In this document: piece by piece, positions 7,249 to 52,237 of the stretch
Position numbering within the stretch: the stretch's first letter is position 1
Layout of the letters: every line of letters begins with the position of its first letter
Source of the DNA: Phycisphaerae bacterium
Lineage (GTDB): Bacteria; Planctomycetota; Phycisphaerae; Phycisphaerales; SM1A02
Assembly (NCBI GenBank): GCA_002717655.1
Contig: PBAY01000051.1
Coordinates: 62,001-126,000 of the forward strand
Direction of reading: 5' to 3'
Length of the DNA: 64,000 nt
Program-made: the position numbers and the translations under genes
Notes under the pieces: model-generated
Databases searched by the model: none
What the model saw: only the letters and a program-made list of their open reading frames with translations
Told to the model about the DNA's origin: nothing

Positions 7249-9689
7249 TCTGCGACGGTTTCCGCATCCTTCAAGGAAGCAATGAGCAGTGCGAACTGTC
7301 CATCGAACGGCGGCCCGCCAAGCCTCGCATCCTGTTGCCTGAGACGATTCACTCTGGCCAGCACATCAGCTGGATCTCGACCGTTGTCCTTCATCAGTTG
7401 CAGCATTCGCAACTGCGAGGTCCAGAACCTGATCGGATTGGCCACTGGATCAGCCTTGCACAAGCGAGCATAGATCGTGATCAATTCGGCTTGATCCGAA
7501 CCAGACAGCACGTGCATGCATTCCGCCTTGCAGAGCAACGCAGTGGCAAGGTCAGGACTTGATTTGAGAATGCCATTGACTGCCTTCAAGGCCTCGCCTG
7601 GCTCGCCTCCTCGGCGAATCGACTCAACAGCCAGCACAAGATCCGCCTCATCCAGATTTTCCTCGGCCAGCAATGACCTTCCGAGTGAGACACAGGCCAT
7701 CGCCATGGCAGGATCCTCTACTGGATCCAATGGCAATGGCCACCCGATGGAACGCCCGGCAACAGGAAGTACTCCTCTTGCGATCTGCGGCATGAGATCT
7801 TCAGGCAGCGTTTCAATCACCGCACGTACGGCTCCTTCACGACCCGTACCAATCGAGGCCTCGAGTTTGGCGATCTCAATCGGAGCACGCATTTCTGGCT
7901 CGATGACGTCGAGATGCAAAGCAGAGAGTTGGTTCAGCGCCCTGACCGGGCTGTCTTCCATCAAGCTCATTCTGGCTTTGATCCATCCAATCGTGACATG
8001 AACTCGCGCCGCATCCGCAGGACTCTCCTCCGACAGAAGCATGAGTTCTCGATCCATCGATTCAATGCTGGCTGAAATTTCAGGAATGAACTGGGCCCGC
8101 TCCTCGGCAGAAAGACGATCCAGCCCCGCGTACATCATCATGGCCAATTGCCGAATGGCGAAGATTCGTTCAGGCGCATCAGCTTCGATGGATTCGTAAT
8201 GATTGGTGGCTTCCTTGATCTGCCCAATGGCCTGGGCCCACTGCCCTGCCTGAAGTAGCCATTTGTTCAGATTCGGATGGTCCTGAAAATTCGTAAGCAG
8301 GTTGTTGACTGCTGCCGTTCGCCGAGCCAACAGCGACTGTTCCTCGGGGCGATCCATGACTACCTTGGAAGCAAGATCCGCAGCCATTTCAGCGGCGTAC
8401 TGCCCTTCTTGACGAGTGCCTGCCAGCTGTGACCACTCGATGGCGTAATCGATCGCCGCTTCACGATCACCTGAATTCAACGACGCAATGGCCAGTACGG
8501 ACAGAACTCTGGGGCGTTGGCGAGGCACCAGCCCTGGCCTGGCCAGCAATGATTCCAGCATGTCGCGTGCCTGCTGTGCGGTATCAGGTGATTGGGCCAG
8601 CGGGAACGCGAATGCGACCCCCACTGAAGAAGGGAGGTGATCCGCCATTGGATCCGCGAAGTCAAGCCTTCCCAACCTCTGTTCAATCATCAGATCCAAC
8701 AGATGCTGCTGCTGGTCAACAACAATCCCCCCGGTTTCAGGCTGCAGAAGAAGAAATGCCTCAACGGCAGTGAATTCAAGATCCTTTCGCTGTTCCTCGG
8801 CCTGCACCTGGTCATTGACTTTCGCAGCAACTTCCTTGGAAGCCTTGATCCAGTACTGAGCTGCCATCTCGATCAACAGCAGACGCTCGAATGGGTCGTT
8901 GCTTGTTGCTGCTGAAATCTGAGCATCGCCTCCTGCAGCAACCGAACCAGACTCCTTGAATCGCAGATCTACCAATCCAGCTCTCGCTCCAAGAAGATCC
9001 AGCTGCCCTGCACTGGTTGAACGACGTACACCTTCCAACTCGGATCGAGCAAGATCAAGCTCCCCAATCGCCAACTGCGCCAAACCCAGCTGACGTGAGA
9101 TCGTGGCTCGGGATACACCTCGAAGATTTGGCCGGGCCTTTCCCATCAGACCAATGGCTTCGCGGTAGGTGACGTCGGGGTCCTCCGCAAGACCACGGGC
9201 TGCCGCAAGCCCAAGTGCCCAACCACGAAGCCTGGGCCATTGCGTGTCGGCAAGTGACTCAAGACGATCACGTCGACTTGAATTCGGTGCTGCTTCAGCC
9301 AACGCTTGAGGCAGTTCCGCTTCAATGGTCGCAGTCTGATCCAGCGCTTCTCGTATGAGGGCATCCATCAGATCACGTTGTTCCGCTGCAGAGAGGCCAT
9401 GCCTCACGAGCAATTCAACAGCATTGATCTGCAGACCCTCCAGCGCATCCTCGGCCTGTGCCGTCCTCCAGAACAAGACCTCAGGGTCAACCGGATTGGA
9501 AGCAATCAGAATCCGACGATCGGCCAGTACCTGATTGAGAATCTCAGGGAGCAGCTCAGGCGATGTCTCCATCGAACGAAGTTGTTGGCGCAACTGGGCA
9601 ACTGCTGCAGCCTGATCCTGTGCCTGCACGGATGGCATCAACATCAGAATCAGGACACCGACCAATACACCATGGAATCTTGCGGTCAT
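7245..9689 (-). CDS. Large secreted helical-repeat (TPR-like) protein, last gene of the ExbBD/vWA operon
   Basis: The roughly 814-residue protein has a clear signal peptide ([16 protein letters not shown], cleavage near VQAQ). Its body is almost entirely alpha-helical, rich in Ala, Leu and Glu, with spaced A/L/G patterns typical of tetratricopeptide-like repeats. No enzyme motif is seen. It is probably periplasmic. It follows the second exbD with a 26-base gap. The frame could open at a TTG (9719) overlapping exbD, but the ATG at 9689 gives a normal signal peptide and has GGAGAAG upstream. Within this operon it may be a periplasmic or outer-membrane partner of the TonB-like/vWA protein; that role is inference. 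Confidence 0.8.
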
Positions 9690-50205: not shown

Positions 50206-50211
50206 TAGACT
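50206..50211 (+). promoter_or_regulatory. Possible -10 element (TAGACT) for the leader or small RNA
   Basis: TAGACT about 60 bases after the ftsK stop would place a transcript start near 50218, giving a roughly 330-base RNA up to the terminator at 50545. TAGACT also lies before nadD. No -35 box was identified. Confidence 0.3.
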
Positions 50212-50263
50212 GGCGATAGATTGAAGTATTACGGGGCTTTGCTCCTGTTGCTGATTGAGTCCT

Positions 50264-50416
50264 ATGGCCAGTGGCAGACCCGTAACGACCGTGGGCAGCA
50301 TGCTCGCGGGCGATGTGCCCTCTGGGACGCCGGAGGTGTCAAGAACCCGGCGGCTGGTCATCACTACCGGTGACGGCTGGGAAGGCTGGACTCATGAAAG
50401 GAGGTGGTCTAGATGA
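50264..50416 (+). CDS. Putative 50-residue small protein, doubtful
   Basis: An ATG-started frame of 50 codons lies in the region after ftsK. The product is basic, with Arg-rich ends (SRTRRLVITTG, HERRWSR). It has no recognisable family, no strong ribosome-binding site, and codon choices (AGG AGG, AGA, CGG CGG) unlike the neighbouring genes, so it may not be translated. Its stop overlaps the ATG of the next micro-ORF (ATGA), and its last codons contain the AAAGGAGGTG that would serve that micro-ORF. It may equally be part of a non-coding structured RNA. Confidence 0.3.
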   Translation: MASGRPVTTVGSMLAGDVPSGTPEVSRTRRLVITTGDGWEGWTHERRWSR

Positions 50417-50454
50417 TTAATGAATGTGACTGTATGAGAGGGTCGCACTGCTAA
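50413..50454 (+). CDS. Putative 13-residue cysteine-rich leader peptide
   Basis: The micro-ORF reads MINECDCMRGSHC followed by TAA, with three Cys codons in 13. Upstream lies GAAAGGAGGTG, almost the full complement of the 16S rRNA 3' end, at 8 bases from the ATG. Part of the ORF lies within the left arm of a hairpin (GAGGGTCGCAC...GTGCGATCCCTC), and a strong terminator begins 54 bases later. This is the layout of a leader peptide in a transcription attenuator, but the downstream gene is a carboxyltransferase with no obvious cysteine link. It might instead be chance. Confidence 0.4.
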   Translation: MINECDCMRGSHC

Positions 50455-50497
50455 CCCGTGCGATTGACGGGTTGCACGGGCGTGCGATCCCTCAGCA

Positions 50498-50545
50498 GAA
50501 AAAACCCCCGACGGACGGCATTTCGATGTCGTCCGTCGGTTTTTG
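50498..50545 (+). terminator. Strong rho-independent terminator before the carboxyltransferase gene
   Basis: A 13-base stem (left arm 50508-50520 CCGACGGACGGCA, right arm 50527-50539 TGTCGTCCGTCGG, one G-U pair) with a six-base loop is followed by TTTTT and preceded by a run of A. It is a textbook intrinsic terminator. It may end the ftsK transcript, about 360 bases from its stop, or the leader/small RNA, or act as an attenuator for the gene starting 61 bases downstream. Confidence 0.93.
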
Positions 50546-50605: not shown

Positions 50606-52237
50606 ATGCCCGAAACGCCACTTCAGACCGCGACTACGGAATTCATCGCTCAAGCTTCACAGATCCGCGAAGGCGGTGGCAGCAAAGGCGTTGAACGTCA
50701 ACATCGACATGGGCGGTTGACCGCCCGAGAACGAATTGAAATGCTAGCGGACGAGGGCCACCCCGCTTTTGAATGTGGGCTTTTCTCGGCCTGGAACATG
50801 TATCAGGAATATGGCGGGGCGCCTGCCGCAGGCGTCATCACCACCATTGCATCCGTTGGTGGAAAGCTGTGCATGATCGTAGCCAATGATGCCACGGTGA
50901 AAGCCGGCGCCTTCTTCCCGATGACCTGCAAGAAGATCATTCGGGCTCAGGAAATTGCACAGCGAGCGAGACTTCCTCTTCTTTATCTTGTTGATTCAGC
51001 CGGCGTCTTCCTGCCGCTTCAGGAAGATGTCTTTCCTGATACGGATGACTTTGGAAGAATCTTCCGGAACAATGCCGTGATCTCGGCTGATGGGATCCCG
51101 CAGATGGCGGCCATCATGGGCAACTGCGTCGCGGGCGGCGGCTACCTCCCGGTGCTGTGCGACACCCTGCTCATGACGGAGGGCAGCGGCCTGTATCTGG
51201 CAGGACCTGCACTCGTCAAGGCGGCAATCGGTCAGGAAGTAAGCACTGAAGATCTCGGTGGTGCTGAAATGCATGCGAGCGTTTCCGGAACCATCGACTT
51301 CCATGAGCCGGATGATGAATCCTGTCTGAAGAGACTTCGCTCACTCGTACAGGCCGACATGGCGGTTGCACCAGCTCAGACTCCGCCGTTTGAATCAATG
51401 GCTCCAGCTCGAGCACCTGAAGATATCTATGGCATCTTCACAGACAAGCCCGGCAGTCAATATGACGTCAAGGAACTTCTTGAATGTGTCGTCGATCGGG
51501 ATTCATTCAATGAGTACAAGTCGGACTACGGCGCCTCGATCGTCTGTGGCTATGCAAGAATTGATGGTTGGCCATGCGGAATCGTCGCCAACCAGCATCA
51601 GTTGACGCAACGAAAGATGCCCGGCGGCAAGGCTGGACCATCAACCGCTACGAACATGCCTGCGGTCATCTACACGGACTCCGCCGACAAGTCTGCTCGA
51701 TTCATCATGGATTGCAACCAGAAGCGGATACCACTGGTCTTCGTTCATGACACAACCGGCTTCATGGTCGGTCGAGACAGTGAACAGGCCGGGATCATCC
51801 GCAGCGGTGCCAAGATGGTCAACGCCATGAGCAACAGTATCGTTCCGAAGATCTCACTGATCACCGGGGGCAGTTATGGAGCCGGCAATTATGCGATGTG
51901 CGGGAGAGCCTTCGACCCATTCCTGACACTTGCCTGGCCGGGATCGCGGTGCGCGGTCATGGGCGCTCAATCCGCAGCCAACACACTTCTTCAGATCGAT
52001 CTTGCTGCTCGAAAGAGAAGAGGCGAAGAACCGAATGAAGAAGAACGACAGCAACTGCTGGATGCCATCACCAACTCATACACCGACCAGCAGGACATTC
52101 TGTATGGCGCGGCAAGGGGCTGGCTTGATCGCATGATCGAACCTGACAAGACGAGGGATGAACTTGCTTTGGCGCTTCGGATCGCATCCACCTTTCCAAC
52201 TGATGCACCCTTCAAGACCGGTGTACTTCAGACCTGA
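50606..52237 (+). CDS. Acyl-CoA carboxylase carboxyltransferase subunit (beta, MccB/PccB-type)
   Basis: The roughly 543-residue subunit moves carboxyl from carboxybiotin to an acyl-CoA (methylcrotonyl-, geranyl-, propionyl- or acetyl-CoA). The start is the ATG at 50606 (MPETPLQT); the open frame extends back to 50543 without similarity. N-terminal motifs are GGGSKGVERQHRHGRLTARERI, VANDATVKAGAFFPMTCKKIIRAQEIA, LLYLVDSAGVFLPLQ and MGNCVAGGGYLPVLCD. The C-terminal half has IPLVFVHDTTGFMVG and ITGGSYGAGNYAMCGRAFDPFL. The overall layout, including QEVFPD-like DVFPDTDDFGRIFRN, matches methylcrotonyl-CoA-type subunits best. The biotin subunit is not in this window. TATTCT at 50594-50599 could be a -10 box giving an almost leaderless message. 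An SDR follows 17 bases on. Confidence 0.9.
   Translation: MPETPLQTATTEFIAQASQIREGGGSKGVERQHRHGRLTARERIEMLADEGHPAFECGLFSAWNMYQEYGGAPAAGVITTIASVGGKLCMIVANDATVKAGAFFPMTCKKIIRAQEIAQRARLPLLYLVDSAGVFLPLQEDVFPDTDDFGRIFRNNAVISADGIPQMAAIMGNCVAGGGYLPVLCDTLLMTEGSGLYLAGPALVKAAIGQEVSTEDLGGAEMHASVSGTIDFHEPDDESCLKRLRSLVQADMAVAPAQTPPFESMAPARAPEDIYGIFTDKPGSQYDVKELLECVVDRDSFNEYKSDYGASIVCGYARIDGWPCGIVANQHQLTQRKMPGGKAGPSTATNMPAVIYTDSADKSARFIMDCNQKRIPLVFVHDTTGFMVGRDSEQAGIIRSGAKMVNAMSNSIVPKISLITGGSYGAGNYAMCGRAFDPFLTLAWPGSRCAVMGAQSAANTLLQIDLAARKRRGEEPNEEERQQLLDAITNSYTDQQDILYGAARGWLDRMIEPDKTRDELALALRIASTFPTDAPFKTGVLQT

Follow-up and report, generated by a model that had tools for sequence, protein, structure and literature searches.

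Two Rfam families of bacterial small RNA come closest to the locus described here. CC2171 (RF01867) is a Caulobacter sRNA of unknown function; most intergenic ncRNAs in that organism are untranslated according to the Caulobacter authors, who do not name CC2171 in this context (PMC4117421). Ms_IGR-5 (RF02471), an actinobacterial sRNA, is reported to be protected by ribosomes in M. abscessus and M. smegmatis (PMC4974804) and has been detected by RNA-seq in Streptomyces (PMC8079986, PMC8780764). Direct engagement of the ribosome has been reported for the small RNA SprF1, which binds via a purine-rich segment and attenuates initiation (PMC8158120). Extended Shine-Dalgarno (SD) sequences are preferred by ribosomes lacking bS21 in Flavobacterium (PMC9976891), and E. 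coli bS21 has been proposed to block extension of the SD helix on its start-proximal side (PMC13009471). Here we describe a region of a 64,000-nucleotide stretch of planctomycete DNA (the whole stretch is hereinafter designated the window) that, on the evidence of sequence comparison, holds a real and conserved RNA gene at 50206-50545.

Results

A structured RNA gene between ftsK and a carboxyltransferase gene

The RNA sits between ftsK (end 50146), identified by Pfam FtsK domains, and a carboxyltransferase gene (start near 50606), identified by PF01039, in agreement with a preliminary description of the window; the SD, 13-codon ORF, stem across the ORF end and terminator that it listed are all present (Table 1). 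Its –10 box survives as a promoter-like element but not as the TAGACT at 50206, the conserved element being GATAGA at 50215-50220. Elements of the GCGATAnT type usually lie 65-80 nt before the GACGACC motif in relatives, and from this conservation we infer a promoter, although a simple scan found no match to the sigma-70 consensus at the element.

Table 1 Features of the RNA locus, in window coordinates
Feature	Position	Strand	Basis
Putative –10-like promoter element GATAGA (family consensus GCGATAnT)	50215..50220	+	conserved ahead of the RNA across relatives
Structured RNA gene of about 318 nt, with putative 5′ end	50228..50545	+	conserved block, fold z –4.6, covariation
Closing helix P0, TACGGG (50230-50235) with CCCGTA (50279-50284)	50230..50284	+	own arms pair better than swapped arms
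Helix P1, 50286-50297 with 50301-50312	50286..50312	+	7/10 pairs change on both sides
Helix P2, invariant GACG tetraloop (50326-50329)	50318..50337	+	two-sided change in 7/8 pairs; same loop in 19/19
Helices P3/P4, conserved GACG bulge	50346..50381	+	7/12 pairs change on both sides
SD core GAAAGGAGGTG	50396-50406	+	sequence
Extended SD, 17-nt complement of the 16S rRNA 3′ end	50396..50412	+	own 16S tail GCGGCTGGATCACCTCCTTTCT; –30.4 kcal/mol
Micro-ORF, 13 codons + stop (ATG..TAA), MINECDCMRGSHC, three Cys	50413..50454	+	intact in 66/66 readable relatives
GACTGTA motif (Asp-Cys codons), ahead of the stem at constant spacing	50428..50434	+	UGU 60, AGU 4, UGC 0
Stem P5, begins inside the ORF and closes past the stop; inner hairpin with GACG	50438..50493	+	4/8 counted pairs change on both sides
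Intrinsic terminator, 14-bp stem (50508-50539) + T-run	50508..50544	+	

The 318 nt fold at –143.3 kcal/mol, with none of 100 shuffles as good (z = –4.6). Helices P1-P5 are common to 19 aligned sequences, in which 95.2% of cells are standard pairs (98% for P5) and 25 of 44 pairs show two-sided changes (127 cells), a level that 0 of 500 shuffles reach; since many of the sequences are related, these and the other counts given here overstate the number of independent events. Sliding the partner by one base reduces pairing to about 40-42%. For the closing helix P0, compared across 34 relatives, the mean energy is –8.36 kcal/mol with a sequence’s own arms versus –7.13 kcal/mol with swapped arms (2 of 5000 permutations). 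A CUGGAC/GUCUAG stem around the SD, present in the fold of the window sequence, is not kept even within the genus and was set aside.

GACG or a near-GACG sequence recurs along the RNA and is invariant or nearly so in the 19 relatives: in the GACGACC junction (50286-50289), the P2 tetraloop, the P3/P4 bulge (50372-50375) and the P5 inner hairpin (50466-50469). These sites look like recurrent elements for protein binding or tertiary contacts.

Every Rfam model scores below its gathering threshold at the locus, and the order shows only sub-threshold matches to the two families introduced above: CC2171 scores 17.9 bits in the window and 20-33 bits in relatives against a gathering score of 75, and Ms_IGR-5 scores 21.7 bits (E 0.0065) in the window and 26.2 bits in one relative (L005) against 45. 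Matches to GlsR14, ceN101, Cyano-2 and MIR1858 lie far below their cut-offs and are attributed to chance. The preliminary description rightly set aside tmRNA and RNase P RNA, whose covariance models find nothing at the locus and match elsewhere in the same genome. For tmRNA, two matches in this genome are above threshold (G000:C51:971-1320 and G000:C16:87-438), representing either two genes or some sequence of a second strain within the assembly.

An extended SD precedes a micro-ORF

The 16S rRNA gene of the genome ends GCGGCTGGATCACCTCCTTTCTAAGG (L213), and its tail pairs with the extended SD over 17 contiguous base pairs, including two G-U pairs. The SD had been called almost ideal, which is correct but understated, as the complement continues through GGTCTAG. 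The median energy of this duplex over relatives is –29.3 kcal/mol; the best ordinary SD among the 50 window ORFs of at least 200 aa, with many candidate starts considered, reaches –17.2 kcal/mol. In 201 genomes of the order, the pattern AGGAGGTGRTCNNGTG occurs about 90 times, mostly at the RNA’s own site, and its reverse about a dozen times. A second GGAGGTGATC in the window, at 8633, has no suitably spaced start codon after it. The extended SD may be no more than an ordinary SD at its maximum.

Both the stems and the micro-ORF are kept in relatives, where the in-frame ORF is 10-14 codons long at all 66 readable loci and the distance from the start to GACTGTA is 3, 6, 9 or 12 nt, always whole codons (the few exceptions in this count are matches to shorter motifs). 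Such whole-codon differences in N-terminal length speak for translation. The conserved Cys codon, which precedes the stem by exactly three codons in 64 of 66 relatives, is never UGC and is replaced by Ser AGU in four, against a background in which UGU makes up 25% of Cys codons in neighboring genes; of the three Cys codons of the window ORF, it is the only one kept. The last codons of the micro-ORF form one side of a stem (GAGGGTCGCAC/GTGCGATCCCTC), within which pairs 312-361 and 313-360 swap CTG and TCG (Leu/Ser) with compensation outside the ORF. The exclusive use of UGU for Cys, the AGU substitutes and the compensated stem swaps indicate that the nucleotides themselves are constrained. Across the aligned relatives, translation and RNA shape are thus kept, and the peptide less so. 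The spacing of GAC UGU, six bases and the stem appears to resemble that of ribosome-pausing elements.

Distribution within the order

When 60 relatives were searched at the DNA level, the region was recovered from 18 further genomes, together with one short match that lacks the RNA. A covariance model (hereinafter designated R1) built on the SD, ORF and stem detects the RNA in 156 of 301 genomes from the order, as a single copy in 155 and as two copies in the remaining one, and also matches in other families of the class. The figure of 156 is a lower bound because R1, at the cut-off applied, misses divergent members such as that of G042 (L217, minus strand, 1380-1780), which retains the 5′ domain and has an 18-codon ORF with a different peptide, MSYFSQDLEQRSNDGSLR. 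While ftsK lies upstream in 15-17 of 64 loci, the downstream genes of 65 relatives fall into 47 clusters, on the same strand in 26 and on the opposite strand in 39, and this variable and mostly opposite-strand neighborhood argues that the RNA is an independent gene.

Similar loci in other phyla

A scan of GTDB genomes with the exact motif AAGGAGGTGATCCAGTG, which samples one spelling only, found at least 117 places. An ORF of at most 30 codons is opened by 113 of the 117 matches listed, compared with about 17-38% for other SD-like spellings at the same loci, and a terminator-like site lies within 270 nt of the start in 100 of 115 matches listed versus 3 of 115 random windows. According to record titles, the matches listed come from Alphaproteobacteria (most), Phycisphaerales, one Planctomycetaceae, Krumholzibacteriia, Myxococcota and Acidobacteria, that is, by phylum or class, from Alphaproteobacteria, Planctomycetota, Myxococcota, Krumholzibacteriota and Acidobacteriota. 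Beyond the class, R1 scores 33.5 bits in the Planctomycetaceae locus L114 and 26.9 bits in the Acidobacteria locus L125; elsewhere its matches are weak and mostly of SD length.

The peptides are lineage-specific: MSRVILERGVGT... in Rhodobacteraceae, MSYLKRCHLAGIAR in Bradyrhizobium, MSHCHQ... in Brevundimonas, Methylobacterium and Bosea, ..GLVEVASLH in Krumholzibacteriia, ..CTYTAGEVVHF in Myxococcota and ..STCPTEVASS in Acidobacteria. We define an extended-SD micro-ORF RNA class by the parts in common. The window RNA fits this class, having a 17-bp 16S-tail complement directly before the start, a 13-codon ORF, its own terminator and no constant downstream gene. A literature search found no paper describing such a class, and the planctomycete RNA looks like the local version of an unrecognized kind of RNA found in several phyla.

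Some features are peculiar to individual lineages. In L146, L135, L132, L159 and other Rhizobiales and Methylobacterium loci, a 16S-tail copy, CTGGATC, lies within the micro-ORF about 50 nt past the SD; it could pair with the RNA’s own GATCCAG and hide the extended SD. In L113, L125, L127, L137 and L150 (Krumholzibacteriia, Acidobacteria and Myxococcota), the ORF contains GAGGTGGC/GAGGTGGT, for which CGCCACC/ACTACC some 90 nt downstream is a possible pairing partner, and the Ms_IGR-5 model is similar. The Rhodobacteraceae RNAs (L091-L207, 24 loci listed) often follow a gene whose product we take to resemble a queuosine-precursor (YhhQ-like) transporter.

Discussion

The arrangement of a covarying 5′ domain, a 16S-tail complement of up to 17 nt, a micro-ORF and a terminator leads us to favor, with a probability of about 0.55, an independent structured RNA gene, present as a single copy, that acts through ribosome engagement and is conserved for its translation rather than for its peptide. 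As pictured from these sequence data, initiation would follow the binding of free 30S subunits to the extended SD. The ribosome would reach the stem while decoding GAC-UGU, where it might melt the stem or, as a guess, pause, and would terminate just inside the stem. Translation of the micro-ORF would in this way remodel the RNA, and the state of the RNA (exposure of the 5′ domain, stability, partner binding via GACG) would be set by the ease of 30S engagement; any effector further downstream is a guess. The extended pairing may favor 30S subunits with an unusually accessible 3′ tail, for instance those lacking bS21, by analogy with bacteroidal rpsU. Because ribosomes without bS21 prefer extended SDs and bS21 is proposed to exert a block in E. 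coli, a sensor of the 30S state would be plausible.

A noncoding decoy that sequesters the 16S 3′ tail or the 30S subunit for attenuation or hibernation, with the ORF incidental, would account for a 17-bp complement far in excess of need and has a precedent in the reported activity of SprF1 (PMC8158120). However, frame, start spacing and stop are kept everywhere and would be unneeded for a mere decoy, and we regard this explanation as unlikely. Less probable still is that the peptide is itself the effector and the RNA an mRNA encoding a conserved Cys/His micropeptide of 10-14 residues, for instance one that binds metal or acts on membranes. The strong SD, the frame and stop kept in 66 of 66 relatives and the Asp-Cys-x-x-Gly-Leu/Ser-His/Arg sequence common to most of them are what such an mRNA would display, but the invariance lies at the nucleotide level (UGU never becomes UGC, and AGU, a Ser codon, is tolerated), Gly-Leu-His is dictated by the stem and varies with its 3′ side, and in some relatives, such as L217, the same RNA carries a wholly different peptide.

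We give very little credence to a guide or checkpoint RNA for 16S 3′-end maturation that would match 3′ ends only while they are immature or unfolded. Full pairing extends towards helix 45, the complement includes CUGGAUCA, which presumably corresponds to sequence partly in or next to that helix, and in relatives with a GTG start the complement takes in the first base of the start codon; yet the distal GATCCAG varies in the order, whereas GGAGGTGAT is kept. The least credible reading is the cysteine-codon attenuation that the preliminary description had proposed, a cis-acting leader of the carboxyltransferase gene, whose ATG lies about 60 nt away on the same strand in the window and which stays with the RNA in several relatives of the family, as the downstream gene differs in most relatives, with 39 of 65 on the opposite strand, a single Cys codon is kept and is Ser AGT in four relatives, the terminator is complete and ends the transcript, and the predicted fold contains no antiterminator pairing that we could see.

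The small RNA named as the other alternative in that description is supported, given the covarying structure, the one copy per genome, the RNA’s own terminator and the variable neighbors, so that its interpretation is partly supported overall. Going beyond the favored reading of an independent, ribosome-engaging RNA gene, we tentatively suggest that these RNAs may be widespread, housekeeping-like elements sensing or tuning the pool of 30S subunits that are free or of special composition, with the 16S tail as ligand and translation of a dispensable micropeptide as readout, and that CC2171 and Ms_IGR-5 may be unrecognized members. One testable feature, a near-complete 16S-tail complement before a micro-ORF, links several unexplained RNAs of distant phyla and suggests a general RNA device for reading ribosome availability. 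If the 30S 3′ tail is the ligand, this would bear on the measurement of translation capacity and on specialized ribosomes.

Comparison with known systems

Leader-peptide attenuators likewise have a micro-ORF that ends in a stem and is followed by a terminator, but here neither a constant regulated gene nor a run of codons is present. SprF1 of Staphylococcus aureus differs in being a type I antitoxin without a conserved micro-ORF of this kind. The bacteroidal rpsU mRNA, which underlies bS21 autoregulation, has in common an exceptionally strong pairing with the 16S tail that is read by ribosomes lacking bS21 (PMC9976891); it is a ribosomal-protein mRNA, in contrast to the stand-alone structured RNA with a micro-ORF described here.

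The Ms_IGR-5 model starts with GGAAGGAGGUGGUC and has a terminator after an ORF-like part, within which a possible 12-codon frame, read from the consensus alone, ends in TCEVAAR-stop inside a stem. Ms_IGR-5 looks alike in the order of its parts. CC2171 shares the extended SD, the micro-ORF (with a GTG start) and the terminator, and differs in its peptide, MSHCHQ..., and in lacking both the planctomycete 5′ domain and the GACUGUA-stem arrangement. At the other scanned loci tested, no Rfam family was found at the site, and in Brevundimonas, Bosea, Methylobacterium and Falsiroseomonas the CC2171 model scores above its gathering threshold exactly on the scanned sites. CC2171 represents the class in Alphaproteobacteria.
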